Positions 413 through 57,088 of a stretch of DNA of 64,000 bases are shown here, in pieces (within the stretch, counting starts at the first letter, position 1; each line of letters begins with the position of its first letter). A program made the position numbers and the translations under genes. A model generated the notes under the pieces. The model was not told the origin of the DNA. It worked only from the letters and a program-made list of their open reading frames with translations, and did not search any database. The DNA comes from Rhodoferax sp. (GTDB lineage Bacteria; Pseudomonadota; Gammaproteobacteria; Burkholderiales; Burkholderiaceae_C). Location: assembly GCA_031291305.1 (NCBI GenBank), contig JARLJH010000014.1, positions 62,001-126,000 of the forward strand, given 5' to 3'.

Positions 413-468
413 AAGGCCTCTAGCCCAGGCAAAATATCCGCATATTGCTTCAGTAAATATAGCAATTA
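413..468 (-). repeat. Short palindromic repeat (AGCT/GGGCTA family), intergenic copy
   Basis: Reverse-strand copy of the dispersed ~50-bp element. The GGGCTAGAGGCC half is well kept; the GATAGCT half has drifted to TTGCTATA. It lies between psuG and the DUF1016 fragment. Confidence 0.5.
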
Positions 469-496
469 AACACCCCGCCAGGCGCTCAACACCCTG

Positions 497-1429
497 CTAC
501 CCCAACGCCAAGTGCTCCCGCGCAATGGCCGCCGCCAGCCGGGCGTTGTTCAACACCAGCTGGATATTCGAGGCCAGGCTGTCGCCGCCAGTCAGTTCAC
601 ACACACGCGCAAGCAGGAAGGGCGTGGACTCCTTGCCGGTGATGCGTTGCTGCTGCGCCTCTTGCAGGGCTTGTTCCACCGCCGCGTCAATGGCGGCGCG
701 CGGCATGGCAAAGGCTTCGGGAATCGGGTTGGCCACCACCAGACCACCCTGCAGGTTCATGGCCCACTTGGCGTGCATCACCTGGGCGATGGCCTGGGCG
801 CTGTCGAGTTGGTAGTCCACCTTGAAGGCGCTGTCGCGGGTGAAAAACGCCGGCAGCCAGGGGGTTTGGTAACCGATCACCGGCACGCCGTGGGTTTCCA
901 GGTATTCCAGCGTCAGACCCAGGTCGAGGATGGACTTGGCCCCGGCACACACCACGGCCACGGGCGTCTGCGCCAGCTCTTGCAAGTCGGCCGACACGTC
1001 AAAGCTCTGTTGCGCCCCACGGTGTACGCCGCCAATGCCGCCGGTGGCAAACACGCGGATGCCGGCCATGGCGGCAATGATCATGGTCGCGGCCACGGTG
1101 GTGGCTCCCGTTGCGCCGCTAGCCACGATGAACGGCAGGTCGCGTCGACTGACCTTGACCACGCTGCGCCCGCTTTGGCCCAGGGTTTCAATCTCTGCGG
1201 CCGTCAGCCCGGCCTTGAGCCTGCCGTTGATGATGGCGATGGTGGCGGGTACCGCCCCATGCGCTCGCACCTCGGCCTCCACCTGCAAGGCGGTGGCCAC
1301 GTTTTGCGGGTATGGCATGCCGTGCGAAATGATGGTGGACTCCAGCGCCACTACGGGGCGGCGCTGTGCCATGGCTTGTGCCACGTCGGGATGGATATCA
1401 AGGTAAGGAGGGGTCATGGTGACACTCAT
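497..1429 (-). CDS. psuG: Pseudouridine-5'-phosphate glycosidase
   Basis: Predicted to split pseudouridine 5'-phosphate reversibly into uracil and ribose 5-phosphate, the second step of pseudouridine breakdown in the cytoplasm. The 310-residue product matches the usual family length (about 310) and has the family block VALESTIISHGMPYPQN, with the active-site Glu at residue 30, followed by INGRLKAGLT and the Gly-rich FATGGIGGVHRG segment. The start is the ATG at 1429, which overlaps the psuK stop as ATGA. A longer in-frame extension upstream would lie inside psuK and is rejected. Gene order psuK-psuG is the standard catabolic pair. Confidence 0.93.
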   Translation of the reverse strand: MSVTMTPPYLDIHPDVAQAMAQRRPVVALESTIISHGMPYPQNVATALQVEAEVRAHGAVPATIAIINGRLKAGLTAAEIETLGQSGRSVVKVSRRDLPFIVASGATGATTVAATMIIAAMAGIRVFATGGIGGVHRGAQQSFDVSADLQELAQTPVAVVCAGAKSILDLGLTLEYLETHGVPVIGYQTPWLPAFFTRDSAFKVDYQLDSAQAIAQVMHAKWAMNLQGGLVVANPIPEAFAMPRAAIDAAVEQALQEAQQQRITGKESTPFLLARVCELTGGDSLASNIQLVLNNARLAAAIAREHLALG

Positions 1430-9516: not shown

Positions 9517-11034
9517 TCAGGAACTGCAACTGATCTCGATGTGGCTGGCCCACTCGGGTGGAAAACCGGCCAGCGTCTCAAACGCCGGATGTTCATCATA
9601 GGGGTGTTGCAAGACAGCCAACAAATGGGCCACCGCCGTGAAGTCTTTCTGCCGGGCAGACTCAATGGCTTGCTCTCCCAGGTAGTTGCGCAGGACAAAT
9701 TTGGGATTGACGTTAAGCATCAAATTGGCCTCTAGCCCTTGATCTGACTGCGCAACAAGCTCTGAATAACGCAGCAGCCAGGTGTCGAAATCCGGGCGAC
9801 TGATGAACAGGTCGCGCACCGGCTCATAGCGAGCACTGGCTCGGGCGTGGCTCAGGCGGCGCCAGAAGATGCTGTAGTCCACCCGGTCTTGCGTCAGCAG
9901 CGCCAGTGTGTCGCGGATGAAGTCAGTGAATACCGAATCAGCGGCGCCTGGCGCTGTTGCGTCATCGCTGCTGGTTGGCGGCAGTGTCAGCCCCAGCTTG
10001 GTGAGCATCAGATGCTGGTAGGTCTGGGTGAAACGGGGCTGAAAGGCCTCCAGGGCCTGCTCAGCGAGTGCCGGCCGTCCGATCAGCGGCAGCAGCGCAT
10101 GCGCCAGCGCAAACAGGTTCCAGTGCGCGATCTCGGGCTGCTGGTCAAACGCGTAGCGCCCGCTGCGGTCGGTGTGGTTGCAAATGTGGCCGGGGTCAAA
10201 CGCGTCCATGAAGGCAAACGGCCCGTAATCCATGGTCAGGCCCAGGATGCTCATGTTGTCAGTGTTCATCACGCCGTGGCAAAAGCCCACCGCCTGCCAG
10301 TGCGCCAGCATCACGGCGGTGCGCTCGCTCACTTGTTGCAGCAGGTGAGCGTAGGCATTGCCATCAAACTGCACCGTTTCCCGGCAGTCCGGGTAAAAGT
10401 TGTCGATGACAAAGTCGGCCAGCGTTTTCAGCTCGGCCTGCTGGCCCCGGCTGGCAAAGTGCTCGAAGTGACCAAAGCGAATGAAACTCGGTGCCAAGCG
10501 GGTCACCACGGCGGCGGTTTCCAGCGTCTCGCGTGCGATGGGCTCATCCGAGCCAGTGACGCACAGCGCCCGCGTGGTGGGAATGCCCAGTGCGTGCATG
10601 GCCTCACTGCACAAAAATTCGCGGATGCTGCTGCGCAACACCGCGCGGCCATCGCCCATGCGGGAGTAGGGTGTGAGGCCGGAGCCTTTGAGCTGGATTT
10701 CCCACCCCTGGGCTTCACCCAACAGAATGGCGCGGCCATCGCCCAACTGCCCGGCCCAGCTGCCAAACTGGTGTCCGCTGTAGACGCTGGCCAGTGGCTG
10801 GGTGCCCGAGATCGGCAGGTTGCCGGACAGCGCCTGTAGCAGATCGGGTGAGTCCATCCAGGACGCATCCAGCCCCAACAGCTCGGCCGCGCTCTGGCTG
10901 CGTCCCACCCAATACGGTGCAGGCAGCGGCTGCGGAGCCATTGATGTGTAAAAGCCCGGCCCCAGACGGTGAAAACGGTTGTTCCACGTCAGCGGCGTCT
11001 TGACCAATGGTATGGGGGTGAGTGGCGCATTCAT
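9517..11034 (-). CDS. selO: Protein adenylyltransferase SelO (YdiU)
   Basis: 505 residues from the ATG at 11034; the frame is open further upstream but not family-like. A pseudokinase-fold enzyme that transfers AMP to Ser/Thr/Tyr of target proteins and is linked to oxidative stress. Visible marks are [20 protein letters not shown], the nucleotide loop [20 protein letters not shown], the metal-binding NTDNM and DYGPF segments, and the C-terminal SCSS. In vertebrate SelO a selenocysteine takes the place of this Cys. It heads an operon with msrB, which suits a shared role in redox homeostasis. Confidence 0.94.
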
Positions 11035-11173
11035 GGGTAGCATTGTGGGCTGGCGGGTACAAACCCTGTGCGTGCAGGGGCATCCAACCATGGACCATGG
11101 CCTGCTGATGGCATGCATCGTGGGATGCGATTCAAAGTAAGTGCTTGCTGATAGAAAACCTCCTCTCCGCACG

Positions 11174-11304: not shown

Positions 11305-11336
11305 CTCACCGTGTTGGTCTTGATGAATTTTGTAGA

Positions 11337-11394
11337 GAAACGGCCTCAATCCCTTGTCTGTAAAGGACTAGCAGCTATCAAAAATGTGCATATC
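11337..11394 (-). repeat. Short palindromic repeat (AGCT/GGGCTA family), intergenic copy
   Basis: Reverse-strand copy with a well-kept TTTGATAGCTGCTAG half and a weaker AAGGGATTGAGGCC half. It is placed between the two larger palindromic modules. Confidence 0.65.
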
Positions 11395-14467: not shown

Positions 14468-15721
14468 GTGGATCAAAACAGAGGTTTGTCGGTCACCCAA
14501 CCCGCGAACAGCTTGTCGCGCCTGCTGGTTTGGGGCGGCTACGCGTTGGTGCTGGTGCTGGCGCCGCTGCTGCTGACCAGCAGCCTGAGCCAGTCGCTTC
14601 TGAGCCAGATCGGCATCGCCATCATCGTCTGCCTGAGCTACAACCTGCTGCTGGGCCAGGGCGGCATGGTGAGCTTCGGTCACGCGGTGTATTCGGGCAT
14701 GGGCGCTTTTCTGGCCATGCATACGCTCAACCGGGTCAGCGGCGGCATGCCTTTGCCGGTGAGTCTGGTTCCGCTGGTGGGCGGGCTGGCCAGCGCGCTG
14801 CTGGCGCTGCTGCTGGGCTGGGTCACCACCCGGCGCGCGGGCACATCATTTGCCATGATCACCTTTGGCATGGGTGAGCTGATCTGGGCCGCGGCGTTGG
14901 TCTTGCCGGGCTTTTTTGGCGGCGAGGGTGGTGTCTCGGGCAACCGGGTGGCGGGTAGCGCACCGCTGGGGCTGAGCTTTGGCCCGCAAATCCAGCTTTA
15001 CTACCTGATCGCGGCATACACCTGGGTCTGCACCGCGCTGATGTATGCGCTGACCCGCACGCCGCTGGGGCGCATGCTCAATGCCGTGCGCGACAACCCC
15101 GAGCGTGTGGCTTTCATCGGCTACAACCCGCAGCGGGTGCGTTACATGGTGTTCGTCATTGCGGCCTTTTTTGCCGGGATCGCAGGTGGATTGTCGGCCT
15201 TGAACTATGAAATTGTGAGCAACGAGGTATTCAGCGGCAGTCGCTCCGGCGCTTACTTGCTGTTCACCTTTGTCGGTGGCTCGACCCTGTTTGTCGGACC
15301 CATCATTGGCGCCGTGTTGATGGTGTTGGCATTCGGGCTGCTGCCGGGGCTGACACCGGCCTGGCTGCTGTACCTGGGCGTGATCTTTGTGGGGATGGTG
15401 ATGCTGGCACCCGGTGGCGTGGCGGCGCTGGCGCTGGCTGCGTGGCGGATGGCCGGGCAGGGTACCTGGGCGCGGCAGTGGGCCCCGCGACTACTGATGC
15501 TTGCTGCACTTGTGATAGCTGCCAGCGCATTTGTGACGGGGGTTGAGATGGTTTATCACCTGCAACAAAGCGATGTGTCGGGCCCCATGCTGTCGATGAT
15601 GGGGTTGACGCTGGACACCCGCAGCCCGGTCAGCTGGATTGGCTGCGCCGTGGTGGGAATGTCGGGCCTGGCACTGTGGCTGGCTGGCCAGCGCTGGCTG
15701 GCGCAAGAGGGCCGAGTATGA
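14468..15721 (+). CDS. livM: Branched-chain amino acid-type ABC transporter permease LivM
   Basis: 417 residues. It has the LivM marks GIAIIVCLSYNLLLGQGGMVSFGHAVYSGMGAF, MLNAVRDNPERVAFIGYNPQRVRY and GGSTLFVGPIIGAVL. After the conserved membrane core a 60-residue tail carries one short palindromic repeat (about residues 345-361, VIAASAFVTGVE), so part of the tail may be repeat-derived. The start is a GTG at 14468. The stop overlaps the livG ATG (ATGA). Confidence 0.87.
   Translation: MDQNRGLSVTQPANSLSRLLVWGGYALVLVLAPLLLTSSLSQSLLSQIGIAIIVCLSYNLLLGQGGMVSFGHAVYSGMGAFLAMHTLNRVSGGMPLPVSLVPLVGGLASALLALLLGWVTTRRAGTSFAMITFGMGELIWAAALVLPGFFGGEGGVSGNRVAGSAPLGLSFGPQIQLYYLIAAYTWVCTALMYALTRTPLGRMLNAVRDNPERVAFIGYNPQRVRYMVFVIAAFFAGIAGGLSALNYEIVSNEVFSGSRSGAYLLFTFVGGSTLFVGPIIGAVLMVLAFGLLPGLTPAWLLYLGVIFVGMVMLAPGGVAALALAAWRMAGQGTWARQWAPRLLMLAALVIAASAFVTGVEMVYHLQQSDVSGPMLSMMGLTLDTRSPVSWIGCAVVGMSGLALWLAGQRWLAQEGRV
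15504..15550 (+). repeat. Short palindromic repeat within livM
   Basis: Forward copy inside the livM tail: GTGATAGCTGCCAGC half plus a drifted ACGGGGGTTGAG half. It is read with GCT as an Ala codon, like the other coding copies. The most diverged of the coding copies. Confidence 0.45.
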
Positions 15722-16536
15722 CCAGACCCGAGGCGCAACTGGACACGCCTGCCAAAGCGGCCTTCGCAGGTTCTCCCGCGTTGGAACTCAAAGGCGTACA
15801 CAAGCGTTTGGGCCAAGCCCACATCATCGGCGGCATCAGCCTGAGCGTGCAGCCAGGTGAGCGCCTGGGCCTCATCGGGCCCAATGGCGCGGGCAAGTCC
15901 ACACTGTTTGACCTGATCAGCGGCCGCCATGCACCTGACAGCGGCCAGATCTGGTTGCATGGCCAGCGCGTGGACGGCAAAAAGCCCTTCGAGATCAACC
16001 GCCTGGGCCTGGCGCGGAGTTTCCAGGTCAGCCAGTTGTTTCCCAGCTTGAGCGTCTTTGACAACCTGCGCTGTGCCATGCTGTGGAGCCAGGGGCTGCG
16101 CTACGGCTTCTGGCGCTTTTTGTCGGACCTGACCGACACCAACCAGCGCACTCATGCGCTGATGCAGTGCCTGCAACTTGACCACCGGCGCGACACCCCG
16201 GCCCTACACCTGAGCTACGCCGAACAGCGCGCGCTGGAGCTGGGCATCACCTTGGCAGGTAACGCCAGCGTGCTGCTGCTGGACGAGCCCACGGCGGGCA
16301 TGAGTCGCTCGGAAGCGTTGGCGTTCATGGCCTTGATCGATGCGGTAACGGTGGGTAAGACGCTATTGATCGTAGAGCACGATATGACCGTGGTATTTGG
16401 GCTAGCGAGCAAAATCGCTGTGATAGTTCAAGGTGAGCTGCTGGCTCTGGATACGCCCGATGCAGTGCGTGCTAACCCTCTGGTGCAACAAGCCTACCTG
16501 GGCCTGGCACAGCCCTTAAATGAAGCTATGACCTGA
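15718..16536 (+). CDS. livG: Branched-chain amino acid-type ABC transporter ATPase LivG
   Basis: 272 residues from the ATG at 15718. ATPase with Walker A GPNGAGKST, LivG-specific LARSFQVSQLFPSLSVFDN, signature LSYAEQRALELGI (first residues of the usual LSYGQQR) and Walker B LLLDEPTAGM, followed by the switch His in LLIVEHDM. Coupled to livM by a 4-base overlap and to livF by a 2-base gap. Confidence 0.9.
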   Translation: MTRPEAQLDTPAKAAFAGSPALELKGVHKRLGQAHIIGGISLSVQPGERLGLIGPNGAGKSTLFDLISGRHAPDSGQIWLHGQRVDGKKPFEINRLGLARSFQVSQLFPSLSVFDNLRCAMLWSQGLRYGFWRFLSDLTDTNQRTHALMQCLQLDHRRDTPALHLSYAEQRALELGITLAGNASVLLLDEPTAGMSRSEALAFMALIDAVTVGKTLLIVEHDMTVVFGLASKIAVIVQGELLALDTPDAVRANPLVQQAYLGLAQPLNEAMT

Positions 16537-18467: not shown

Positions 18468-20564
18468 ATGACGACAGACTACGCTGTGCAGGGCCCCGTC
18501 GCCGTGCTCACGCTCAACAACCCGCCGGTCAATGGCATGGGGCTCGCCACTCGCGTGGCATTGACCGACGGTCTGGCCCGCGCGCTGGCCGATGAGACCG
18601 TCAAGGCCATCGTGATTACTGGTGCTGGCAAGGCATTCTCGGGTGGGGCCGATATCACCGAATTTGGTTCGCCCAAAGCCTTTGCCGAGCCGAATCTGCT
18701 CAGCGTGATTTTGGCCATTGAGGCATCGACCAAGCCGGTGATCGCCGCTGTTCACACGGTGTGCATGGGGGGCGGGCTGGAGCTGGCGCTGGGCTGTAAT
18801 TACCGCATTGCCGCCCCTGGCTGCAATGTGGCGTTGCCAGAGGTCAAACTCGGTCTGGTGCCCGGTGCCGGTGGCACGCAGCGCCTGCCACGCGCGCTGG
18901 GTGTGGAGCCCGCGCTGAACCTGATCGTTAGCGGCGAGCAGGTCAAGAGCGAACTGCTGGCTATGCTGCCGGGCCAGCAGCTGTTTCAGAAGATTGCAGC
19001 GTCACCCGAGACCCTGATGGCCGAGGCGCTGGTCTTTGCTGCAGAGGTAGCTGATGTGCGCCCATTGCCACAGGTGCGCAAGCTGCCCAGCCGCCACCCG
19101 CAGGGTGATGCTTACTTTCAGTTTGCCCGCAACATGGTCAAGGGCATGGCCAAGAATTTCCCCGCTCCGGTCAAGTGTGTTGACATGGTTGAGGCTTCGA
19201 CCAAAAACAAGTTTGACGACGGCATGGCCCTGGAGCGCGAAACCTTCTTGAACCTGATGTGGACGCCTGAGCACCGCGCACTCAGACACTTGTTTCTGGC
19301 CGAGCGTGCTGCGTCAAAAGTGCCTGATGTCCCCGTCGATACACCACTGCGAGATATCAAATCGGTAGCAATCATCGGCGCGGGAACCATGGGGGGCGGC
19401 ATTGCCATGAACTTCCTGAATGCCGGTGTGCCGGTGAAGATGCTGGAGATGAAGCAAGAGGCGCTGGACCGGGGACTCGCCACCATCCGCAAAAACTACG
19501 AAGCCCAAGTGGCCAAGAAAAAGCTCAAGCAAGACAAGTACGAGCAGCGCATGGCCCTGCTGTCCACCACGCTGAGCTATGACGACCTGACTGATGCCGA
19601 CCTGGTGATCGAGGCGGTGTTTGAAGACATCGGCGTGAAAGAAGCCGTGTTCAAAGAGCTGGACCGCGTGGTGAAACCCGGCGCGATTTTGGCTTCCAAC
19701 ACCTCCACGCTGGACCTGAACAAAATCGCCAGCTTCACCCAGCGTCCGCAAGACGTGGTGGGCCTGCACTTCTTCAGCCCGGCCAATGTGATGAAGCTGC
19801 TGGAAGTGGTGCGCGGCGAGAAAACCGCCAAAGACGTGCTGGCCACCGTGATGAGCCTGGCCAAAAAGATCAAGAAAACCGCCGTGGTGTCGGGCGTGTG
19901 TGACGGCTTCATCGGCAACCGCATGATCGAGCAATACGGCCGTCAAGGCGGTTTCCTGCTGGACGAAGGCTGCACCCCGGCGCAGGTGGACAAGGCCATG
20001 GAAAAATTTGGCATGGCCATGGGACCCTTCCGCATGAGCGACCTGGCTGGCAACGACATTGGCTGGGCCATCCGCAAGCGCCGCTACACCGAGCAGCCCG
20101 ACATGAAATACAGCAAAACCGCCGACCTGCTGTGTGAAAAAGGCCGCTTTGGCCAGAAGACAGGCGCGGGCTGGTATGACTACGTGCCCGGCAAGCGCGA
20201 TGCCATCCCGAATGCTGAAGTGGTCAAAATGATCGAAGACCACCGCGCCGCACTGGGCATCACGCCGCGCAAGATTTCGGACGAAGAAATCGTCCAGCGC
20301 CTGGTGTTCAGCCTGGTCAACGAAGCCGCCCACATTCTGGAAGAAGGCATTGCCAACAAGGCCAGCGACATCGACGTGGTCTACATCTTTGGCTACGGTT
20401 TCCCGGTGTACCGCGGTGGCCCGATGAACTACGCCAACGAAGTCGGCCTGTTCAACGTGGTGCAAGCCATGAAGCGTTTTGCCCAGAACCCGCTGGACGA
20501 TGCCAAGTTCTGGCAGCCTGCGCCGCTGTTGGTCAAGCTCGTGGCCGAGTCCGGTAATTTGTAA
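18468..20564 (+). CDS. fadB: Bifunctional enoyl-CoA hydratase / 3-hydroxyacyl-CoA dehydrogenase
   Basis: 698 residues, alpha subunit of the fatty-acid oxidation complex. An N-terminal crotonase domain (about 1-190) has [11 protein letters not shown] and the oxyanion region [10 protein letters not shown]. The NAD-binding domain starts at about 298 with [18 protein letters not shown] and continues with [10 protein letters not shown] and the catalytic-region [15 protein letters not shown]. Two C-terminal 3HCDH repeats follow ([27 protein letters not shown]). Hydrates trans-enoyl-CoA and oxidises the product. Followed by the thiolase gene. A TetR-like palindrome lies just upstream. Confidence 0.93.
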
Positions 20565-20569
20565 GAAAT

Positions 20570-20622
20570 CCGCTTTTAGCCCAGGTAAATTAAAGGCTAG
20601 TAGCTATCAATTTAATAATTTT
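20570..20622 (-). repeat. Short palindromic repeat between fadB and fadA
   Basis: Reverse-strand copy, both halves well kept: AAATTGATAGCTACTAGCCT and CTGGGCTAAAAGCGG. It lies in the 120-base fadB-fadA spacer. Confidence 0.7.
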
Positions 20623-20684
20623 GCAGGACAAGCCGCAGCCCGATGAAATGGGTCAGCGCTGTCCTCAATACTTTGGAGATCACC

Positions 20685-21860
20685 ATGACATCCGCAGTAA
20701 TCGTTTCCACCGCCCGCACCCCCTTGGCCAAAAGCTGGAAGGGCTCTTTCAACATGACCCACGGGGCCACGCTGGGCGGCCACGCGGTCGAGCACGCCAT
20801 CCAACGTGCAGGCATTGAGGCCGCCGAGGTGGAAGACGTGATCATGGGCTGTGCCCTGCCCGAAGGCGCGACCGGCTCCAACATCGCGCGTCAAATTGCC
20901 TTGCGCGCAGGCTGCCCGGTCAGTGTGTCGGGCATGACGGTCAATCGCTTCTGCTCTTCAGGACTGCAAGCCATTGCGCTGGCTTCCCAACGCATCATCG
21001 CCGGGGAGGGCGACACCTACGTGGCCGGTGGCGTGGAGAGCATCTCCTGCGTGCAGCAAGAACTCAACAAACACATGATCACCGACCCGTGGCTGCTCAA
21101 AAACAAACCAGGGATCTACTGGGACATGCTGCAAACCGCTGAAAACGTCGCTAAGCGCTACAACATCAGCCGCGAAGCCATGGACGAGTACGGCGCCGCC
21201 AGCCAGCAAAAAGCCACTGCGGCGCTGGAAGCCGGTCTGTTCACCGCCGAGATCGCCCCTATCACCGTCACCATGGGCGTGGCTGACAAGGTGATGGGTT
21301 TGACGACCAAAGAAGTGACCGTCAGCCAGGACGAAGGCATCCGCCCCGGCACCACTTACGACGGCATCAAGGGTCTGCGCTCGGCCATGCCCGGTGGCCT
21401 GGTCACTGCCGGCAACGCCAGCCAGTTCTCTGACGGTGCGGGTGCCATGGTGGTGATGGACGAGGTGGTGGCGCAGCGCAAGGGCTTGCAGCCGTTGGGT
21501 CGCTTTTTGGGCTTTGCCGTGGCGGGTTGCGAGCCGGATGAAATGGGCATTGGCCCGGTGTTTGCCATCCCCAAGGTGCTGGGCCGTCTGGGCCTGACGG
21601 TGAACGACATCGACCTGTGGGAACTCAACGAAGCCTTCGCCGTGCAGGTGATCTACTGCCGCGACAAGCTCGGCATTGACAACGCCCGCCTCAACGTCAA
21701 CGGCGGTGCCATCGCGGTGGGCCACCCCTACGGCGTGAGCGGCCAGCGCCTGACCGGCCATGCCCTGATCGAAGGCAAACGCCGCAGTGCCAAGCGCGTG
21801 GCGGTGACCATGTGCATCGGCGGCGGCATGGGGGCTTGCGGGGTGTTTGAAGTCTTGTAA
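20685..21860 (+). CDS. fadA: Acetyl-CoA acyltransferase (3-ketoacyl-CoA thiolase)
   Basis: 391 residues from the ATG at 20685, which follows TTGGAGATCACC. It carries the nucleophile Cys90 in [10 protein letters not shown], the second site [17 protein letters not shown] and the C-terminal catalytic Cys in [12 protein letters not shown]. Cleaves 3-ketoacyl-CoA with CoA, the last step of beta-oxidation. It partners the upstream FadB. Strictly, an acetyl-CoA acetyltransferase is also possible, since both share these motifs. Confidence 0.92.
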
Positions 21861-21861
21861 T

Positions 21862-21907
21862 TTGATAGCGCTTGGCCTATGTAAAACGTGGGCTGCGGGT
21901 GGATTTT
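21862..21907 (+). repeat. Short palindromic repeat, intergenic copy
   Basis: Forward copy starting right after the fadA stop: TTTGATAGCGCTTGGCC half and GTGGGCTGCGGGTGGA half. Confidence 0.55.
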
Positions 21908-21940
21908 GTGTGTACACCATTGGCACTGGGGCGAATGCTT

Positions 21941-27867: not shown

Positions 27868-27874
27868 GTGCGCT

Positions 27875-35566: not shown

Positions 35567-35602
35567 ACGTGCAGATGCAGATGTGTTAAAAAGATATATA
35601 AG

Positions 35603-35656
35603 AAAATCCCCTTCAGCCCTTATATATAAAGGGCAAGAAGCTATTGATTCAATAGT
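35603..35656 (-). repeat. Short palindromic repeat, intergenic copy with strong hairpin
   Basis: Reverse-strand copy with halves ATTGATAGCTTCTTGCCC and AAGGGCTGAAGGGGATTTTC. The centre GCCCTTATATATAAAGGGC (35616-35634) can form a near-perfect hairpin. Located between the thioesterase and the MDR gene. Confidence 0.75.
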
Positions 35657-35685
35657 TATTCGTCGTCACCTCAGGAAGTAAGAAC

Positions 35686-36702: not shown

Positions 36703-37634
36703 TCCTGCACCACTACCCGATGTCGCCGTTCTCGGAGAAAGTCCGGGCGGTTTTGGGTTTCAAACAACTGGCCTGGCAATCGGTGATCATTCCGACCATC
36801 ATGCCCAAGCCGGACATGCTGGCACTCACGGGCGGCTACCGGAATACGCCGGTGCTGCAAATCGGTGCCGACATCTACTGTGATACCTCGTTAATCTGCG
36901 ATGTGCTGGAGCGGCGTGCGCCCACGCCCAGTTTGTTCCCTGAGGGGGTGAACAGCGCATTGGCGACCATCGTGGCACAGTGGGCTGACAGTGCCCTGTT
37001 TTGGGCTGCCATGGGCTACAACCTGCAAAAGCCGGGGATGGATGAGCTTTTCAGCGGCCTGCCTGCGCAGATGGTCAAGGACTTTGCCGCCGACCGCTCG
37101 GCCATGGCCACTGGCCTGGCGCGTCCGCGCCCACGTGACGCCACGGTGGCCTACCGGGTCTATCTGCAACGTCTGGCATCCATGCTGGATGGTCAGGCTT
37201 TTCTTCTCGGTATGGCGCCTTGCGTGGCTGATTTTGCGGCTTATCACCCGCTGTGGTTCACCCGCAATCAGGTACCAGGCATGGCGTCGATTCTGAATAC
37301 TGTGCCTGTCGTACTGGGTTGGATGGCGCGTATGGAGGCCTTTGGGCATGGTGAAATGAGCCGCCTTAGTGCTTCTGAATCAATAGCTATATGTGCAAGC
37401 TCTGAAAGGGCTATCGGCCAAAATGACTCAGAGTTTCAGGATGATCATGGCATCCCGCTAGGCAGTTTGGTGAGCGTTGCCGCAGAGAGTTTTGGCAGCG
37501 AGCCAACGGTGGGTGTACTGGTGGAGGCGACGCACGACCATTACACGCTTCGCCGCGAGGACGCGCGCGCCGGTGTCGTGCGGGTGCACTTTCCACGCAT
37601 TGGTTATGCGCTCAAACAGGAGGCTTCATCATGA
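36696..37634 (+). CDS. Glutathione S-transferase-like protein with repeat-derived segment
   Basis: 312 residues. N-terminal thioredoxin-fold domain (HHYPMSPFSEKVRAVLGFK; cis-Pro in RNTPVLQIG; then DTSLICDVLE), then an all-helical domain (about 90-220). Residues about 226-243 come from a short palindromic repeat (SIAICASSERAIGQN). The last 70 residues resemble a small separate domain in a variant GST group. Overlaps the MDR gene by 7 and the ElaA gene by 4 bases. Confidence 0.82.
   Translation: MLILHHYPMSPFSEKVRAVLGFKQLAWQSVIIPTIMPKPDMLALTGGYRNTPVLQIGADIYCDTSLICDVLERRAPTPSLFPEGVNSALATIVAQWADSALFWAAMGYNLQKPGMDELFSGLPAQMVKDFAADRSAMATGLARPRPRDATVAYRVYLQRLASMLDGQAFLLGMAPCVADFAAYHPLWFTRNQVPGMASILNTVPVVLGWMARMEAFGHGEMSRLSASESIAICASSERAIGQNDSEFQDDHGIPLGSLVSVAAESFGSEPTVGVLVEATHDHYTLRREDARAGVVRVHFPRIGYALKQEASS
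37375..37426 (+). repeat. Short palindromic repeat within the GST-like gene
   Basis: Forward copy: GAATCAATAGCTATATG half and AAAGGGCTATCGGCCAAAA half. Same codon phase as the other coding copies (AGCT core gives Ala). Confidence 0.75.
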
Positions 37635-45466: not shown

Positions 45467-47938
45467 ATGCAGAAAATCATCGCGCAAATTGCGCAGGAAA
45501 TTCGTGTTCAGGATCGGCAAGTGGCTGCGGCCGTGGAATTGCTCGACGGTGGTGCCACCGTACCGTTTATTGCCCGTTACAGAAAAGAGGCCACCGGTGG
45601 GCTTGATGACATCCAGCTGCGCGAGTTGGAAAGCCGCCTGAGTTATCTGCGCGACTTGCGCGACCGGCTGGCGGCGATCATCAAAAGCATTGAGGAGCAG
45701 GGCAAGATGACCCCGGCGCTGCTCGCCGCCTTGGTGGCCGCGCCGACCAAGCAGGAGTTGGAAGACCTGTACCTGCCCTACAAGCAAAAACGCCGCACCA
45801 AGGGCCAGATCGCCCGCGAGGCGGGCATCGAGCCGCTGGCCGACAAACTGTTTGCCGACCCGGCGCTGGACCCCATGGTCGAGGCCCAAGCCTTCGTCAA
45901 GCCAGAGAAAAATGAGGCTGGTGATGACTTCACCACCGTGCAGGCGGTGCTCGACGGTGTGCGCGACATTCTGAGCGAACGCTGGGCTGAAGACGCCGCA
46001 CTGGTGCAAGACCTGCGCGAATGGCTGTGGGCCGAGGGCTTGTTTCGCAGCAAGTTGATGGACGGCAAGGATGAAAACAATGCCGATGTCGCCAAATTTC
46101 GCGACTATTTTGATTACGATGAACCGATTGGCCGCGTGCCCTCACACCGCGCGCTGGCGGTGTTTCGGGGACGCAGCCTGGAGATTCTGGACGCCAAATT
46201 GGTGCTGCCGGAGCCACCCGAAGCCTTGGCTGGAAAATTTATGCCAAATGGGGCTCTAACCCAAGAAACAACTGGACAATCCGCTACAAAAGGAAGAGCG
46301 ACTCCGGTGGTGACGCTGGCTGAAGGCCGTATCGCCCTCAAGCTCGGCTGGAGCCACAAGGCTCGCCCAGCCGACGACCTGATCCGCAAATGTGTCGCCT
46401 GGACCTGGCGCGTCAAGCTCAGCCTCTCCACCGAGCGCGACCTGTTTGCCCGCCTGCGCGAGGCGTCTGAAGCCGTCGCCATCAAGGTGTTCGCCGACAA
46501 CTTGCGCGACCTGCTGCTGGCGGCCCCTGCCGGGCCGCGCGTGGTGCTGGGGCTGGACCCCGGCATCCGCACCGGCGTGAAAGTGGCGGTGGTCGATGCC
46601 ACCGGCAAGCTGGTTGACACCAGCACCGTTTACCCGCATGAGCCGCGCAAAGACTGGGACGGCTCGCTGCACATTCTGGGCGCGCTGTGCCTCAAGCACG
46701 GCGTGAACCTGATCGCCATCGGCAACGGCACCGCCAGCCGCGAGACCGACAAGCTCGCCGCTGACCTCATTAAATTGATGTCAAAACAGGCCGCAGCCCA
46801 GGAAGGAAGGGGGCAAGTAGCTATTGAAAAGGTAGTCGTGTCGGAAGCTGGTGCCTCCGTCTATTCGGCCAGCGAATTTGCCAGCCAAGAGATGCCCGAC
46901 GTGGACGTGAGCCTGCGCGGTGCCGCCAGCATTGCCCGCCGTCTGCAAGACCCGCTGGCCGAGCTGGTCAAGATCGACCCCAAGAGCATCGGTGTCGGCC
47001 AGTACCAGCATGACGTGAACCAGAGCGAGCTGGCCAAGACGCTGGAAGCCGTGGTGGAAGATTGCGTAAATTCCGTGGGCGTGGACCTGAACATGGCCAG
47101 TGTGCCGCTGTTGAGCCGCGTGTCGGGCCTGAGCAGCAACGTGGCCAAAGCAGTGGTGCGCTGGCGTGAGGCCAACGGCGCTTTTGCCAGCCGCCAGGAT
47201 TTGCTCAAGGTCACCGGCCTGGGGCCAAAGGCCTTTGAACAATGCGCCGGTTTTCTGCGCATTCGTGGCGGCAGCAACCCGCTGGACATGACCGGCGTGC
47301 ATCCCGAAACCTACCCGGTGGTGGAGCAGATCATCGCCAAGACCGGCAAGCCGGTAGCTGAGATCATGGGTCGTGCCGACATGCTCAAAACCCTGCGCCC
47401 GGAGCTGTTTGCCAATGACAAATTCGGGGTCATCACCGTCAAGGATATTTTGGGCGAGCTGGAAAAGCCTGGCCGTGACCCGCGTCCGGACTTCAAGGTG
47501 GCGCGTTTCAACGACGGTGTGGACGACATCCGTGATCTGAAAGAGGGCATGGTGCTCGAAGGCACGGTCAGTAACGTGGCCGCCTTCGGCGCGTTTGTCG
47601 ATCTGGGTGTGCATCAGGACGGCCTGGTGCATGTGAGTCAGTTGGCGCACAAGTTTGTCAACGATGCGCGTGAGGTGGTCAAGACCGGCGATATCGTCAA
47701 GGTGCAGGTGGTGGAGGTGGACGTGGCGCGCAAACGGATCGCGCTGACCATGAAGCTGGGAGCCGCACCGGCGCGCAGCGGCGGAGTGGGTGACAACCGG
47801 TTCCAGGGCGCCAACCCGCAGCAACGCGGGCGCGGCGGTAACTACGGCTCTGGCAGCAACGCCGGGCAGGGGGCGCATGCGCCACAATCGACCGCCATGT
47901 CATCTGCATTTGCCAAGCTCAAAAACATTGGAAACTAG
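45467..47938 (+). CDS. tex: Tex family RNA-binding transcription accessory protein
   Basis: 823 residues, longer than the usual 770-790. N-terminal Tex helices; YqgF/RNase H-like domain from about 358 (VVLGLDPGIRTGVKVAVVDATG); helix-hairpin-helix region from about 535 (NSVGVDLNMASVPLLSRVSGL); S1 RNA-binding domain about 694-765 (GMVLEGTVSNVAAFGAFVDLG); and a Gly/Arg/Asn-rich tail. Two short palindromic repeats add segments at about 257-278 and 435-455 and partly account for the extra length. The second lies inside the YqgF domain. Tex binds nucleic acid and affects transcription. Confidence 0.93.
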   Translation: MQKIIAQIAQEIRVQDRQVAAAVELLDGGATVPFIARYRKEATGGLDDIQLRELESRLSYLRDLRDRLAAIIKSIEEQGKMTPALLAALVAAPTKQELEDLYLPYKQKRRTKGQIAREAGIEPLADKLFADPALDPMVEAQAFVKPEKNEAGDDFTTVQAVLDGVRDILSERWAEDAALVQDLREWLWAEGLFRSKLMDGKDENNADVAKFRDYFDYDEPIGRVPSHRALAVFRGRSLEILDAKLVLPEPPEALAGKFMPNGALTQETTGQSATKGRATPVVTLAEGRIALKLGWSHKARPADDLIRKCVAWTWRVKLSLSTERDLFARLREASEAVAIKVFADNLRDLLLAAPAGPRVVLGLDPGIRTGVKVAVVDATGKLVDTSTVYPHEPRKDWDGSLHILGALCLKHGVNLIAIGNGTASRETDKLAADLIKLMSKQAAAQEGRGQVAIEKVVVSEAGASVYSASEFASQEMPDVDVSLRGAASIARRLQDPLAELVKIDPKSIGVGQYQHDVNQSELAKTLEAVVEDCVNSVGVDLNMASVPLLSRVSGLSSNVAKAVVRWREANGAFASRQDLLKVTGLGPKAFEQCAGFLRIRGGSNPLDMTGVHPETYPVVEQIIAKTGKPVAEIMGRADMLKTLRPELFANDKFGVITVKDILGELEKPGRDPRPDFKVARFNDGVDDIRDLKEGMVLEGTVSNVAAFGAFVDLGVHQDGLVHVSQLAHKFVNDAREVVKTGDIVKVQVVEVDVARKRIALTMKLGAAPARSGGVGDNRFQGANPQQRGRGGNYGSGSNAGQGAHAPQSTAMSSAFAKLKNIGN
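46236..46300 (-). repeat. Short palindromic repeat within tex, first copy
   Basis: Reverse copy encoding GALTQETTGQSATK between PEALAGKF and TPVVTLAEG. Halves: TTTTGTAGCGGATTGTCC and TTGGGTTAGAGCCCCATTTG. Confidence 0.65.
46772..46831 (-). repeat. Short palindromic repeat within tex, second copy
   Basis: Reverse copy encoding QAAAQEGRGQVAIEK. Halves: TTTTCAATAGCTACTTGCCC and CTGGGCTGCGGCCTGTTTTG. Its peptide aligns with that of the first copy (QE-x-x-GQ-x-A), which is expected if both come from one element in one phase. Confidence 0.75.
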
Positions 47939-48808: not shown

Positions 48809-49984
48809 ATGAAGGCGTTGCGCCTCTACGCTGGTCCGAAGGCGCTCGCACATCTGTCGCGCCAGGGCTTGCACAGCCGCGACATTTCCACTATCCCCGC
48901 TGCAGCGGGCGGCCCCAAGGGCCTGATTTTGGGGCCGCTGGACCAGTTTATTTTTGGCCGGTGGTTGCCGCAATCGAACCAGCCTGTGCATTTGGTGGGT
49001 GCCTCCATTGGGGCTTGGCGCATGGCAACGGCCTGCTTGAATGACCCGGTGCAGGCGTTCATGCAATTGGAGCACGACTACATCCAGCAGAACTATGCCT
49101 TGCTGCCCGGAGAAAAACGCCCGGCAGCGGCGCGTGTCAGCGCCTTGTTTGGAGAAAACTTGCAAGCGTTTTATGGTGGCCGGGTGGCCGAGGTGCTGCA
49201 GCACCCGCGTTACCGGTTGCATGTGCTGACCTCGCATGGGCGCGGTCCACTGGCGCGCGAGCATGGCTGGCGCACCGCGCTGGGCTACGGCGGTGCTTTT
49301 TTGAGCAACCTGGTATCGCGCCAGGCGCTGGGCGCCTCGCTGGAGCGGGTGGTGTTTTCCAGCTCGGCACCCGCGTCAGATGGCTCTACCGGGCCAATAA
49401 CACCCTTGCCTTTTGACCCTGCGGACTACCCGACGCGGCAGGTTGGGTTGACTGAGGCGAATTTTCTGCCTGCCATGCAGGCCAGTTGCTCGATACCGTT
49501 TGTGCTGCAGGCGGTGCATGACATTGCCGGTGCGCCTGCGGGCGCTTATTGGGACGGCGGGGTGACCGACTACCACCTGCATCTGGATTGGTTGAAGACG
49601 TCAGATGCTGCACAAAATATAGCTACTATCCCTTTCCATATAAGGGCTACAAGCCAAAATCTCTTGCAAAATCAACCTGCAGTGGTGCTTTATCCGCATT
49701 TCCAGAAAAGTGTTGTGCCGGGTTGGCTCGATAAACACTTGCGCTGGCGTCACCATGCCACGCCGTTTTTGGACAATCTGTTGCTGCTGGCCCCCAGTCC
49801 CGATTGGGTCAAAACCCTGCCCAATGGCAAACTGCCCGATCGCACCGATTTCCTCCACTATGGCGCAGACTTGGCGGGTCGCGTCAACGCTTGGAAGACT
49901 GGTGTGGCAGCCAGTGAACAACTGGCCGCTGAGTTTGATGCCTGGTTGCAGCGACCGGATATGGGTCTTGTTCAGCCGCTGTGA
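48809..49984 (+). CDS. Patatin-like phospholipase-type protein
   Basis: 391 residues. Oxyanion loop AAAGGPKGL (about 32-40), nucleophile elbow VGASIGAWR (GxSxG, Ser about 66) and the Asp of DGGVTDYH (about 248) make up a patatin Ser-Asp dyad. The predicted activity is lipid acyl hydrolysis. Spacing and other regions depart from common patatins. Residues about 268-285 come from a short palindromic repeat (NIATIPFHIRATSQN), placed after the DGG motif. No signal peptide. Convergent with the large GGDEF-EAL gene. Confidence 0.78.
   Translation: MKALRLYAGPKALAHLSRQGLHSRDISTIPAAAGGPKGLILGPLDQFIFGRWLPQSNQPVHLVGASIGAWRMATACLNDPVQAFMQLEHDYIQQNYALLPGEKRPAAARVSALFGENLQAFYGGRVAEVLQHPRYRLHVLTSHGRGPLAREHGWRTALGYGGAFLSNLVSRQALGASLERVVFSSSAPASDGSTGPITPLPFDPADYPTRQVGLTEANFLPAMQASCSIPFVLQAVHDIAGAPAGAYWDGGVTDYHLHLDWLKTSDAAQNIATIPFHIRATSQNLLQNQPAVVLYPHFQKSVVPGWLDKHLRWRHHATPFLDNLLLLAPSPDWVKTLPNGKLPDRTDFLHYGADLAGRVNAWKTGVAASEQLAAEFDAWLQRPDMGLVQPL
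49612..49662 (+). repeat. Short palindromic repeat within the patatin-like gene
   Basis: Forward copy, among the best kept: AAAATATAGCTACTATCCC and ATAAGGGCTACAAGCCAAAA halves with CCCTT/AAGGG pairing. Encodes IATIPFHIRATSQ. Confidence 0.8.
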
Positions 49985-54540: not shown

Positions 54541-54562
54541 TTACCTGAGAGCTGCCAGGTAA
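54541..54562. promoter_or_regulatory. Inverted repeat TTACCTG-N8-CAGGTAA
   Basis: Perfect 7-base arms in the cytochrome c/comEC divergent spacer, 58 bases before comEC. It could be an operator or an RNA hairpin; no matching known consensus comes to mind. A related palindrome CAGGTCACCTG occurs at 53748-53758, past the other end of the cytochrome gene. Confidence 0.45.
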
Positions 54563-54619
54563 TCAACTTAAGTCGAGGCGACCTCATCCATCTGCCGAGC
54601 CGGGCGTTAGCATGGTGAC

Positions 54620-57088
54620 ATGCCCGAGCTTCACCGCTTTCATACCCACACGTCTGCGCTGCGACTGCTCACCCTGACGCCTGCCCTGCTTGGGGTGTTG
54701 GCGGGTAGTGCTCTGCAGCTATATCAGTCGGCTTTGTGGTCAGTCAATTTCTATATGCTTTTTGTGCTTCTAGCCCTTATTTTGTATGGGCTGATAGCTT
54801 CATTCTTTAGAGCATCTGAACGGGCGATGGCAATGGCCAGTCTGCTGGCGTTTACGATGCTGGCGTTTGCTGTTACAGGTTTGCGGGCCAGCGTTTTTGC
54901 CAGCACGGCCTTGAGTCCTGCGCTGGAAGGGCAGAACGTGGTCGTCAGCGGTGTGGTGGCAGGTTTGCCACAACGTTTTGAGGGCGGTGTGCGTTTTCAT
55001 TTTGAGCAGGACTCGGCGTTTCTGAAAGGGCAGGCGGTAACGTTGCCCCACAGGTTGGAACTGGCCTGGTACGCTGGTGTGTTTGGGCAGAGTGATGCTG
55101 ACGGCGATCCGACAGGTGAACTGCAGCGCACGCCAGCGCCGGTGCAGGCCGACGAGCGCTGGCAGTTCACGGTGCGCCTGAAGGCGCCGCACGGTGGCAT
55201 CAACCCCCATGGCTTTGACTATGAGTTGATGCAGTGGGAGCAGGGCGTGCAAGCGGGTGGCTATGTGCGCGCGGGTCGCCAGGACCCGCCGCCGCAACGT
55301 CTGGACATCACCTGGCAGCACCCGGTCGATGGAGCACGCCAGCAGGTGCGCGAGCGCATTTTTGCCAGTGTGGCAGACCCACACGCTGCCGGGCTGATTG
55401 CCGCCCTGGTCACCGGCGACCAGGGCGCCATCGAACGCGCTGACTGGGATGTGTTTCGGGCCACAGGCGTGGCCCACCTGATGAGCATCTCGGGCTTACA
55501 TATCACGATGTTTGCTTGGTTGGCCGCTGGGTTGGTGGGGTGGCTTTGGCGGCGCTCGCAACGCTTATGTCTGTGGTTACCAGCGCCCAGCGCGGCATTG
55601 ATCGGCGGTGTGCTGCTGGCGGCGGCCTATGCCCTGTTCAGCGGCTGGGGCGTGCCAGCGCAGCGCACCGTGCTGATGCTGCTGACCGTGGGCGCGCTGC
55701 GGCTGGCGGGAGTGCGCTGGCCCTGGCCGCAGGTGTGGTTGCTGGCCTGCGCGGTGGTGGTGGCGCTGGACCCGTGGGCGTTGCTGCAGGCCGGGTTCTG
55801 GCTGAGCTTTGTCGCGGTGGGGGTTTTGTTTGCTTCAGATTCAGGAGCTGTCAGCCAAGACGATAAAAGGGCCAGAGCCAGATTCGTTCATATGTTTCGG
55901 GAGCAGTGGGTGATCACGCTGGCGCTCACACCCTTGACCCTGTTGTTGTTTGGCCAAGTCTCGTTGGTGGGCTTACTGGCCAATGCGCTGGCGATTCCCA
56001 CGGTGACGCTGGTGGTGACACCGCTGGCCATGCTGGGGACGGTGCTGCCGGGTTTGTGGACGCTGGCCACCTGGGTGATTGGCCTGCTGAGCGCCGTGTT
56101 GCAGTGGTTGGCCGCCTGGCCGTGGGCGGTATGGTGGGTAGCGCAGGCGCCCTGGTGGGCCGGTGCTGTGGGTGTGCTCGGCGGTGTGTTGTTGGCCATG
56201 CGCTTGCCATGGAGCCTGCGTTTGACCGGTGTACCGATGCTGTTGCCGGTGCTGCTGTGGCAGGTGCCTCAGCCGCCAGAGGGTCAGTTTGAACTGCTGG
56301 CGGCCGACATCGGGCAAGGCAACGCGGTGTTGGTGCGAACCCGGCACCATGCGTTGCAGTACGACGCGGGTCCACGTTTTAGCAGCGAGAGTGACGCCGG
56401 TCAGCGCGTGCTGGTGCCGCTGCTGCGTGCGCTGGGCGTGCGGCTCGATACCGTTGTACTAAGTCACCGCGACAGCGATCATGTCGGTGGCGCGCCAGCG
56501 GTGTTGATGATGCAGCCGCAGGCACAGTTGATCAGCTCTATCGAGCGCGACAACACCTTGCAGATGTTGCGCCCGGCGATGCGCTGCATGGCGGGCCAGC
56601 GCTGGCGCTGGGATGGCGTGGACTTCGAGATGCTGCACCCGCAAGCTGGGGACTATGAGCAGATCAAGAAAACCAACGCCATGAGCTGTGTGCTGCGTAT
56701 CTCCAATGGCCAGCAGACGGCCTTGCTGGTGGGTGACATCGAGCAGCTGCAAGAAGCTCAACTGGTGCAGGCGCTAGCCCCGGCCGTGCTGCGCGCCGAC
56801 GTGTTGCTGGTGCCGCACCATGGCAGCAAGTCATCAAGCAGCGCGCTGTTCCTGGATGCGGTGCAGCCGCGTATCGCGCTGATCCAGGCGGGCTATCGAA
56901 ACCGCTACGGGCATCCGTATGGCCCTGTTTTGGTGCGTTATCAGGTGAGCGGTGCCAGGGTGGTGGATTCGCCCCATTGCGGGGCGGAAACCTGGCAATC
57001 CTGGGACTCTGGCTCGGTGCAATGCCAAAGGGTGCTTGATCTGCGGTATTGGCACCATCAGATGGCGGATGTTGCCGCAACACCTTAG
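54620..57088 (+). CDS. comEC: DNA internalization-related competence protein ComEC/Rec2
   Basis: 822 residues. N-terminal helices and OB-like DUF4131 region (about 1-200), Competence channel domain (about 225-510: LVTGDQGAIERADWDVFRATGVAHLMSISGLHITMFA in pieces) and a C-terminal metallo-beta-lactamase domain (about 555-800) with DIGQGNAVLVR, SHRDSDHVGG and VPHHGSKSSSS. Carries single-stranded DNA across the inner membrane during transformation. Two short palindromic repeats lie inside (about residues 44-63 and 403-423), the first within a membrane helix. Confidence 0.92.
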   Translation: MPELHRFHTHTSALRLLTLTPALLGVLAGSALQLYQSALWSVNFYMLFVLLALILYGLIASFFRASERAMAMASLLAFTMLAFAVTGLRASVFASTALSPALEGQNVVVSGVVAGLPQRFEGGVRFHFEQDSAFLKGQAVTLPHRLELAWYAGVFGQSDADGDPTGELQRTPAPVQADERWQFTVRLKAPHGGINPHGFDYELMQWEQGVQAGGYVRAGRQDPPPQRLDITWQHPVDGARQQVRERIFASVADPHAAGLIAALVTGDQGAIERADWDVFRATGVAHLMSISGLHITMFAWLAAGLVGWLWRRSQRLCLWLPAPSAALIGGVLLAAAYALFSGWGVPAQRTVLMLLTVGALRLAGVRWPWPQVWLLACAVVVALDPWALLQAGFWLSFVAVGVLFASDSGAVSQDDKRARARFVHMFREQWVITLALTPLTLLLFGQVSLVGLLANALAIPTVTLVVTPLAMLGTVLPGLWTLATWVIGLLSAVLQWLAAWPWAVWWVAQAPWWAGAVGVLGGVLLAMRLPWSLRLTGVPMLLPVLLWQVPQPPEGQFELLAADIGQGNAVLVRTRHHALQYDAGPRFSSESDAGQRVLVPLLRALGVRLDTVVLSHRDSDHVGGAPAVLMMQPQAQLISSIERDNTLQMLRPAMRCMAGQRWRWDGVDFEMLHPQAGDYEQIKKTNAMSCVLRISNGQQTALLVGDIEQLQEAQLVQALAPAVLRADVLLVPHHGSKSSSSALFLDAVQPRIALIQAGYRNRYGHPYGPVLVRYQVSGARVVDSPHCGAETWQSWDSGSVQCQRVLDLRYWHHQMADVAATP
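54751..54810 (-). repeat. Short palindromic repeat within comEC, first copy
   Basis: Reverse copy encoding VLLALILYGLIASFF, which works as part of a membrane helix. Halves: GAATGAAGCTATCAGCCC and AATAAGGGCTAGAAGCACAA. Confidence 0.65.
55829..55888 (+). repeat. Short palindromic repeat within comEC, second copy
   Basis: Forward copy encoding DSGAVSQDDKRARARF in a loop of the Competence domain. Halves: TCAGGAGCTGTCAGCC and AAAAGGGCCAGAGCCAGATT. Confidence 0.65.

Follow-up and report, generated by a model that had tools for sequence, protein, structure and literature searches.

DNA uptake sequences (DUS) of the Neisseriaceae and uptake signal sequences (USS) of the Pasteurellaceae evolve in place, and the known uptake sequences are 9–12 bp long, or about 30 bp in their extended form; as far as we are aware, only these two families have well-established uptake sequences, and we know of no uptake-type motif as long as 70 bp. 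Rickettsia palindromic elements (RPEs), in turn, are insertions. Here we describe a dyad-symmetric motif of about 70 bp that recurs throughout the genome of a Rhodoferax sp. and was first noticed in a stretch of 64,000 nucleotides (assembly GCA_031291305.1, contig JARLJH010000014.1; hereafter the window), corresponding to C44:62001-126000 of the 4.98-Mb genome designated G000. Judged by the named neighbors of its Tex protein, this genome would belong to the Comamonadaceae, close to Rhodoferax. We regard it as marginally more probable than the contrary that this motif is recognized in trans, kept or spread in place, and driven by biased DNA uptake.

Several observations on the same family bear on this subject. 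Natural competence, together with evidence that uptake is selective, is described for the comamonad Verminephrobacter eiseniae, and the Acidovorax tested were not transformed by DNA of another Acidovorax species (PMC4212676). A 2017 survey of motif pairs gives ATAGCT(N)22CAAAAG in Polaromonas naphthalenivorans (125 copies, 101 intergenic, 34 between convergent genes) and GCTTAT(N)5AAGCG in Acidovorax ebreus (114 copies, 107 intergenic, 44 between convergent genes), with the largest number of motif pairs, 140, in Rhodoferax ferrireducens (PMC5217627), many of which may be explained by the clustered regularly interspaced short palindromic repeat (CRISPR) array of that species (PMC2755013).

Results

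A dyad-symmetric motif of about 70 bp

Half-site scans of the window yielded 5 and 9 matches where 0.77 and 1.14 were expected, and an exact core pattern was found 12 times in the G000 genome, its reversed control giving 0. The first copy set was obtained with a hairpin covariance model (at least 149 matches in the G000 genome at an expectation value, E, of 1 or less), which favored hairpin-bearing copies and gave way to a position matrix and a model based on sequence alone. Of 146 curated copies, 134 have the standard length and complete flanks; these define a conserved stretch composed of a 46-bp core, 11 bases on its left and about 12 on its right, with the consensus of roughly AAATRCTAY..AATTnATAGCTACTAGCCCTTTATTTATAAGGGCTAGAGGCCAATTT..YATATAA; the A/T-rich flanks are conserved, and the unit is thus about 70 bp rather than the ~50 bp assigned to it in a first-pass annotation of the window. 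A 71-column matrix trained on 80 intergenic copies that lie outside the window in the same genome (some within contig C12, none within genome G010) provides the bit scores given below unless they are marked as retrained, that is, taken from a second matrix trained on sites in C12 and the window and used for the context, phase, dialect-column, and length comparisons. With the first matrix, 14 sites of at least 8 bits were detected in the window, whereas the reversed window scores −2.2 at best and 20 local dinucleotide shuffles −6.2 at best, so that the repeat itself is real.

At a threshold of 0 bits, 72 sites are present in 400 kb of C12, 15 in the 64-kb window, and 60 in 280 kb of G010, with none in the reversed controls; at 10 bits or more, the respective counts are 63, 13, and 54. 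These three regions of two motif-rich genomes contain 16–23 sites per 100 kb, further motif-rich stretches ranging from 8.6 (G019) to 30 (G024), and extrapolation from C12 and G010 gives roughly 800–1,050 copies per genome. In motif-poor G003, 120 kb contain 2 sites at the lower threshold and 0 at the higher, and seven further motif-poor stretches, 160.6 kb in all, contain no site of 0 bits or more.

According to the retrained matrix at 10 bits and a simple codon-score gene caller, 30 of 77 sites in C12, 12 of 18 in the window, and 39 of 67 in G010 are located inside genes, amounting to 81 of 162 copies, in both orientations. The intergenic sites of C12 are distributed over tandem (34), convergent (10), and divergent (3) gaps, even though the total sequence in divergent gaps is double that in convergent ones; in the 146-copy set, 8 of the 127 copies outside genes are in divergent gaps, and the distance from stop codon to core peaks at 8–12 nt. 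A single reading phase for all coding copies, as the first-pass annotation had it, is the choice of the majority in the three regions but not a rule (28 of the 41 coding copies on the gene's own strand share one phase, as do 33 of the 40 on the opposite strand); the favored phase is, in each orientation, the stop-free frame of the core consensus.

No stem pair was found among the 40 strongest column pairs in the column correlations, the strongest being neighboring or near columns, and many stem pairs are disrupted by a change in one partner alone, which indicates a conserved sequence with dyad symmetry and not a covarying structure. The complete G010 genome contains exact cores in a 58/58 ratio of orientations with no significant replichore bias (a split as large arose in 30 of 300 permutations), and the spacing looks random (coefficient of variation, CV, 0.95–1.22), the longest gaps measuring 19 kb in the G010 region and 43 kb in C12. 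The latter, the largest motif-free gap of C12 (G000:C12:218301-261182; loci L339–L342), contains a Mu-like prophage as judged from four of six scanned proteins (portal, protein F, transposase, and tail). Among the host genes of two regions, about 56 in number, 7 have genome-maintenance products (UvrD, PolA, RecB-like, RecC, LigA, SMC, and HolB-like proteins); the scan covered 58 of 60 references, two genes being split.

Coding copies at orthologous codons

One such case is the SelO gene (open reading frame 9517-11172, minus strand), whose copy at 9709..9779 (minus strand, 38.3 bits) was missed in the first-pass annotation, leaving its count of coding copies incomplete. It shows no indel relative to close orthologues: the net gap is 0 in all 27 orthologues compared, and the SelO in PDB is only 3 amino acids (aa) longer at the motif segment. 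The motif occupies the same codons in 14 of 14 motif-rich genomes, the window included, and in 0 of 14 motif-poor ones, with scores of 13.2 to 55.4 in the 13 other motif-rich orthologues and −26.3 to −60.6 in the motif-poor ones. This set comprises 14 of the 18 genomes with at least 68 matches (G002 and G022 being without a close orthologue, G011 and G014 left out) and 14 of the 16 with 0–6 matches (G009 and G034 left out), while G026 and G029 (13 and 21 matches) are outside it. Third positions at which the consensus base is synonymous agree with the motif in 158 of 214 motif-rich (74%) versus 73 of 211 motif-poor codons (35%), a synonymous difference of 0.39 compared with a maximum of 0.09 among 77 shifted motif placements, and codons of the segment are identical at equal residues in 716 of 1063 comparisons between motif-rich genomes versus 243 of 645 between motif-poor ones; these codon counts, and the dialect counts below, treat related genomes as separate.

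A similar situation is seen in the GST gene (36696-37634, plus strand), the copy of which (37367..37437, plus strand, 35.5 bits) is without net indel in 15 of 18 orthologues, the other three differing by 1–2 aa, and scores 2.2 to 42.7 in six other motif-rich genomes against −14.2 to −67.2 in twelve motif-poor ones. The copy in the acyl-CoA dehydrogenase gene (22236-24110, plus strand) at 23960..24030 (plus strand, 42.5 bits) involves a net 0–1 aa relative to motif-poor G030 and G012, which score −48.6 and −58.0 at this site (30.4 bits in motif-rich G019), and 1–4 aa relative to other genera. That the SelO, GST, and acyl-CoA dehydrogenase copies are chance matches, as their gapless orthologues might suggest, was considered and dropped after the matrix controls and the contrast between motif-rich and motif-poor orthologues. 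As judged from these alignments, coding copies are often apparently written by letter changes rather than inserted.

Length comparisons

For a survey of 114 coding sites, the closest motif-poor orthologue of at least 50% identity was taken, and the same locus can recur; 53 sites had an orthologue across the site in motif-poor DNA and the other 61 were dropped. The net difference is 0 in 28 comparisons, 1 aa in 1, and more than 3 aa in 24, all 25 changes being gains in the motif-rich genome, and the gains above 3 aa span 4–28 aa (patatin, Tex, and others). Inspection of 16 loci by eye gave ten that are always gapless (SelO, branched-chain permease, ABC ATPase, 3-hydroxyacyl-CoA dehydrogenase, acyl-CoA dehydrogenase, GST, the second and third ComEC sites, HGSNAT, and one PurL site), one mixed locus (the first ComEC site), and five with gains (Tex twice, patatin, U32 peptidase, and another PurL site with +7/+8 aa). 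RibD (L139) and the first MutS site (L114) show no insertion relative to PDB homologues, the only homologues compared.

The copy in the patatin-like gene (48809-49984, plus strand) at 49603..49673 (plus strand, 69.0 bits) is a true length gain of 22 aa (66 nt) over empty sites. The loop containing it is 35 aa long in the window and 29–41 aa in 9 of 9 motif-rich genomes of the genus (window included), compared with 12–13 aa in 7 of 7 motif-poor ones (G007, G017, G018, G027, G028, G030, and G035); motif-poor G012 is short in the length comparison and has no anchor in the loop alignment, and the loops of Polaromonas and R. bucti are longer too. In tex (45467-47938, plus strand), the first copy (46233..46303, minus strand, 24.6 bits) is located in a length-variable linker that is 15 aa longer than in motif-poor G003 and G021 and 11 aa longer than in G030; the second (46770..46840, minus strand, 24.0 bits; 37.4 retrained), in a loop, is associated with +7 aa relative to the same three genomes and is missing from motif-rich G032 and G019, the Tex gains overall being +7 and up to +23 aa. 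The first copy in comEC (54620-57088, plus strand), at 54747..54817 (minus strand, 49.8 bits), shows a net 0–1 aa relative to four motif-poor orthologues, although the genes of G024, G005, and G010 are 4–6 aa longer there than the motif-poor ones, and the second, at 55828..55898 (plus strand, 24.5 bits; 44.7 retrained), shows no indel relative to motif-poor G003 and G021.

Peptide addition to housekeeping proteins, proposed in the first-pass annotation, therefore applies to patatin (+22 aa), Tex, and one PurL site, but not to many coding copies: there is no net gap relative to motif-free orthologues in SelO, GST, the livM-type permease, HGSNAT, and another PurL site, and only 0–4 aa in acyl-CoA dehydrogenase.

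Dialects

The motif occurs in species dialects, AAGGGCTA or AAGCGCTA. The ratio of AAGCGCTANAGG to AAGGGCTANAGG is low in G000 (4:100), G004 (2:122), G005 (1:111), G024 (3:195), and G031 (3:130), and high or mixed in G010 (81:35), G023 (102:51), G033 (107:38), G002 (29:7), G022 (28:13), and G013 (18:19); G025 (0:9), G019 (0:10), and G032 (1:9) have low counts, with 0–3 in their reversed controls, and the reversed dialect pattern reaches at most 4 per genome. When the two dialect columns are masked in the scoring, 94 of 100 G000 sites have G as the right-half base, whereas of 68 G010 sites 40 have C and 19 have G; the left-half dialect column is less uniform (54 C and 30 G in G000). The dialect extends to protein residues: codon 479 of SelO, in the right half, encodes Gly in 10 of 10 GGG-dialect genomes and Ala (three) or Glu (one) in the four GCG or mixed ones (Fisher 0.001, uncorrected for descent), and in patatin all 7 GGG-dialect genomes have G as the dialect base, the two GCG genomes having C (G010) and T (G023). 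By eye, the transposase flank of G020 is discordant with its dialect. An enrichment analysis of k-mers showed dialects in some genome sets and no replacement motif in motif-poor genomes, the latter being a weak test, as motif-rich G019 (58 kb) likewise showed none.

Distribution among relatives

A model search of 60 relatives gave matches in 28, namely 27 of 36 genomes of the same genus and 1 of 24 others (E = 0.003). Within the genus, the number of matches is at least 83 in 17 genomes, 68 in one, 21 and 13 in two more, 2–6 in seven, and 0 in nine; the description as a palindromic, partly coding repeat of a betaproteobacterium that some close relatives have and others lack is thus upheld. In midpoint-rooted SelO trees built without the motif segment, motif-poor G003 and G021 are placed among motif-rich genomes (0.95, protein tree), motif-rich G019 is sister to motif-poor G016 (1.0), and motif-rich G032 groups with motif-poor G006 and G015, with weak inner support. 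These trees call for several losses, or gains, of the motif; losses appear preferable because the motif-poor SelO segments of G006 and G015 score somewhat above most other poor ones.

Among 250 family members, the exact core AAGCGCTAGAGGC is found in 60 genomes, about half of them with a single match, and AAGGGCTAGAGGC in 44; a single core match is no evidence alone, because the reversed pattern reaches 6 in one genome. At least 10 exact cores are present in 14 genomes for AAGCGCTAGAGGC and in 8 for AAGGGCTAGAGGC, in scattered genera, with ratios of 79:0 in G282 and 0:38 in G263. Among 80 named Tex loci, 24 matches were obtained at E ≤ 0.1, including contigs of Acidovorax, Polaromonas, and R. 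bucti. Separately, L188, L189, L202, and L208 (Polaromonas and other Burkholderiales) show recurrent partial matches to the left half only (~25–35 columns), possibly representing a shorter relative of the motif.

Other copies in the window and the Y1 transposase

The first-pass annotation listed fifteen copies, of which 14 places were recovered, corresponding to 13 distinct sites. All its coding copies (livM-type gene, acyl-CoA dehydrogenase, GST, tex twice, patatin, and comEC twice) are among them, as are the intergenic ones at 413, 11337, 20570, 21862, and 35603; that at 35616 is the palindromic core of the 35603 element and not a separate copy, and that at 25278 could not be recovered, being outside both the top 16 of the first matrix and the 18 retrained-matrix sites. 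The intergenic copies extend over 397..467 (minus strand, 40.2 bits; 57.9 retrained), 11324..11394 (minus, 49.6 bits), 20553..20623 (minus, 62.9 bits), 21849..21919 (plus, 17.4 bits; 34.3 retrained), and 35590..35660 (minus, 78.8 bits), the last uniting 35603 and 35616. The copy in the branched-chain amino acid permease (livM-type) gene (14468-15721, plus strand), at 15499..15569 (plus, 8.0 bits; 34.6 retrained), has no net indel and is shared with G024 alone among seven relatives compared.

Two weak copies are located in strongly conserved proteins, and there the motif is mostly a matter of codon choice. That in the ABC-transporter ATPase gene (conserved protein, VEHDM), at 16358..16428 (plus strand), scores −10.0 bits (19.7 retrained), compared with −19.5 in G024, −46 to −56 in motif-poor genomes, and −56 and −52 in motif-rich G019 and G032. 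The other, in the 3-hydroxyacyl-CoA dehydrogenase/enoyl-CoA hydratase gene (18468-20564, plus strand; gapless conserved protein), at 19303..19373 (minus strand), scores 0.6 bits (24.8 retrained), compared with −13.2, −23.4, and −36.7 in motif-rich G032, G024, and G019 and −72.7 in motif-poor G030. The window further contains three overlapping long inverted repeats (44–59 nt, 70–82% complementary) at 11168-11592, between SelO and the next gene, and two 157-nt direct repeats, 72% alike and 3.6 kb apart, at 24242-24398 and 27874-28030.

A Y1-transposase gene (L145, G000:C1:57111-57803) is present, mostly once, in 34 of 36 genomes of the genus, motif-free ones included, and 10 of 30 loci, each from a motif-rich genome, have the motif immediately after the stop codon of this gene (one match weak, E = 0.02). 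On its flanks the gene has conserved repeats of its own, distinct from the motif by eye (GGGGTCAGA... / ...TCTGACCCC), in the manner of relatives flanked by terminal inverted repeats (PMC3733652). It was rejected as a driver of the motif, its presence being uncorrelated with the latter. An IS200-like Y1_Tnp gene (L043, 154 aa) showed no significant motif match in the surrounding 3.4 kb.

Discussion

The motif, its density, its presence at the same codons, the synonymous constraint, the dialects, and the near absence in some lineages are direct observations. They are best accommodated by a motif that is recognized in trans and kept or spread in place, which we hold with considerable confidence; whether DNA uptake is the driver is, in our estimation, an evenly balanced question. 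In the predicted mechanism, a trans-acting factor would recognize the motif, and in natural transformation DNA with better matches would enter cells and recombine more often, as for DUS and USS. Point substitutions would act where they are tolerated, chiefly in the short space after a stop codon and in coding segments that permit them, and would shift the local sequence toward the motif, and in some loops in-frame length gains may bring it there as well. When recognition is lost or changed in a lineage, the motif would erode at its loci, presumably rather than being gained repeatedly elsewhere, or would move to a new dialect, carrying protein residues along. In the broader form of this proposal, to which we give neither more nor less credence than to its negation, the Comamonadaceae may own a self-spreading recognition system with a 70-bp uptake-type motif in several hundred to about a thousand copies, rewriting segments of conserved proteins in place, divided into species dialects inside a single genus, and on several occasions almost completely lost.

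Several points weigh against the uptake proposal. The motif, with about 70 columns carrying signal, is far longer than known uptake sequences; the assignments of uptake, binding, and receptor are proposed from sequence comparison and likeness to DUS and USS; and comEC is present in motif-rich and motif-poor genomes alike. Gains of more than 3 aa in 24 of 53 comparisons imply that insertions or loop expansions also occur, and the 39-aa patatin loop of L213, which is without the motif, implies that loop length varies independently of it. At the second comEC site, motif-poor G012 and G030 are longer than the window by 10 and 14 aa (the survey took the closest orthologue only), and several orthologous sites are without the motif in some motif-rich genomes. 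The dialect is clear in the right half only, G032 being GGG there and yet having left-half G in 10 of 13 sites, and relatedness among genomes lowers the independence of the dialect and codon tests below what their p values suggest. Finally, three other large motif-free gaps that were scanned contain core or metabolic genes with no phage look.

Dyad symmetry, A/T tracts over 70 bp, and the signs of trans recognition (dialects, near absence in lineages) would equally suit a binding site of a chromosome-organizing, segregation, or recombination protein, maintained by selection at tolerated positions. Neither a significant replichore strand bias nor a regular spacing is seen, however (CV 0.95–1.22, gaps to 19 kb in G010 and 43 kb in C12), and there is no evident reason to select single SelO or GST copies among many hundreds; we therefore consider this explanation rather unlikely. 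A bidirectional transcription terminator or mRNA 3′-end stabilizer would account for the hairpin-capable core, the T tracts, and the peak 8–12 nt behind stop codons, but is improbable in view of the 81 of 162 copies within genes in both orientations and of stem pairs broken one-sidedly, with no compensatory changes standing out.

The first-pass annotation regarded the motif as an inserted parasite of the Rickettsia type, and more generally a mobile palindromic element, RPE-like or resembling repetitive extragenic palindromic (REP) sequences, may have been inserted in frame, perhaps via the Y1 transposase, and later substituted. The patatin gain with empty sites in motif-poor relatives, the gains in Tex (+7, up to +23 aa) and at one PurL site (+7/+8 aa), and the motif behind the Y1-transposase stop in 10 of 30 loci speak for it, and REPs within repair genes are known (PMC3733652). 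Opposed to it are the 28 of 53 coding comparisons with no length change, the occurrence of the Y1 gene in 34 of 36 genomes of the genus, including motif-free ones, with a different conserved repeat at its flanks, and the dialect shifts at orthologous sites. The insertion reading is thus partly supported, but insertion of a palindromic parasite does not explain the motif in general, since at many coding sites motif-free orthologues carry the segment, an outcome that the annotation itself had named as contradicting it; as an account of the motif as a whole a mobile element is distinctly unlikely. Chance matches to a degenerate A/T-rich consensus, suggested by the degeneracy of the motif and the overlap of several coding copies with residues common to orthologues, are refuted for the 14 listed sites by the reversed and shuffled controls, which give no site at the counted scores; chance has next to no probability as an overall account and is possible for the weakest retrained-matrix matches.

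If biased uptake is the driver, uptake-type tags would be new for the Comamonadaceae, for which no report of an uptake sequence was found among the papers listed in searches of the open-license PubMed Central (PMC) literature. How an uptake motif arises, changes dialect, and vanishes is an old question, and motif-rich, motif-poor, and differently tuned species coexist here in one genus, so that the cognate gene can be sought by presence and absence and, were the motif truly a self-spreading uptake motif, its gain, drift, and erasure could be watched between close relatives. If the function differs, an unknown chromosome-wide recognition factor would be acting. Either way, protein sequence is partly dictated by an unrelated DNA motif, which matters for annotation and for evolutionary rates.

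The comparison with described repeats is instructive. The Polaromonas naphthalenivorans and Acidovorax ebreus survey motifs, compared by their published description, probably belong to the same motif family, ATAGCT being the left core of the motif described here; in the available text of the survey (PMC5217627), they are given as short word pairs without function, with no treatment of orthologues, of dialects, or of coding copies arising in place. It is thus probable that the motif itself was seen earlier, whereas its in-place and dialect behavior was not found among the open-license PMC papers listed. REP sequences and their associated tyrosine transposases (RAYTs; GTAG/CGTC tags) are similar as short palindromes behind genes, some in repair genes (PMC3733652), and here a copy accompanies the Y1 gene in 10 of 30 loci; the present motif differs in being ~70 bp long, in being in place in genes, and in that the transposase gene is also present without it. 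RPEs share with it the palindromic units read in frame within housekeeping genes, but here length is unchanged in about half of the coding comparisons. DUS and USS, its nearest described counterparts, resemble it in their hundreds to thousands of copies, in genes and behind stop codons, in palindromic terminator-like arrangements, a reading-frame preference, and species dialects with protein consequences (PMC3630211, PMC2346458), and also in the use of both orientations, here with no replication-strand bias (58/58 in G010); the present motif is unlike them in being a single dyad-symmetric unit of ~70 bp with A/T-rich flanks, in another family, and patchy within one genus. Altogether, with motif-free orthologues that carry the segment, synonymous constraint, and dialect shifts, it resembles uptake sequences more than RPEs.

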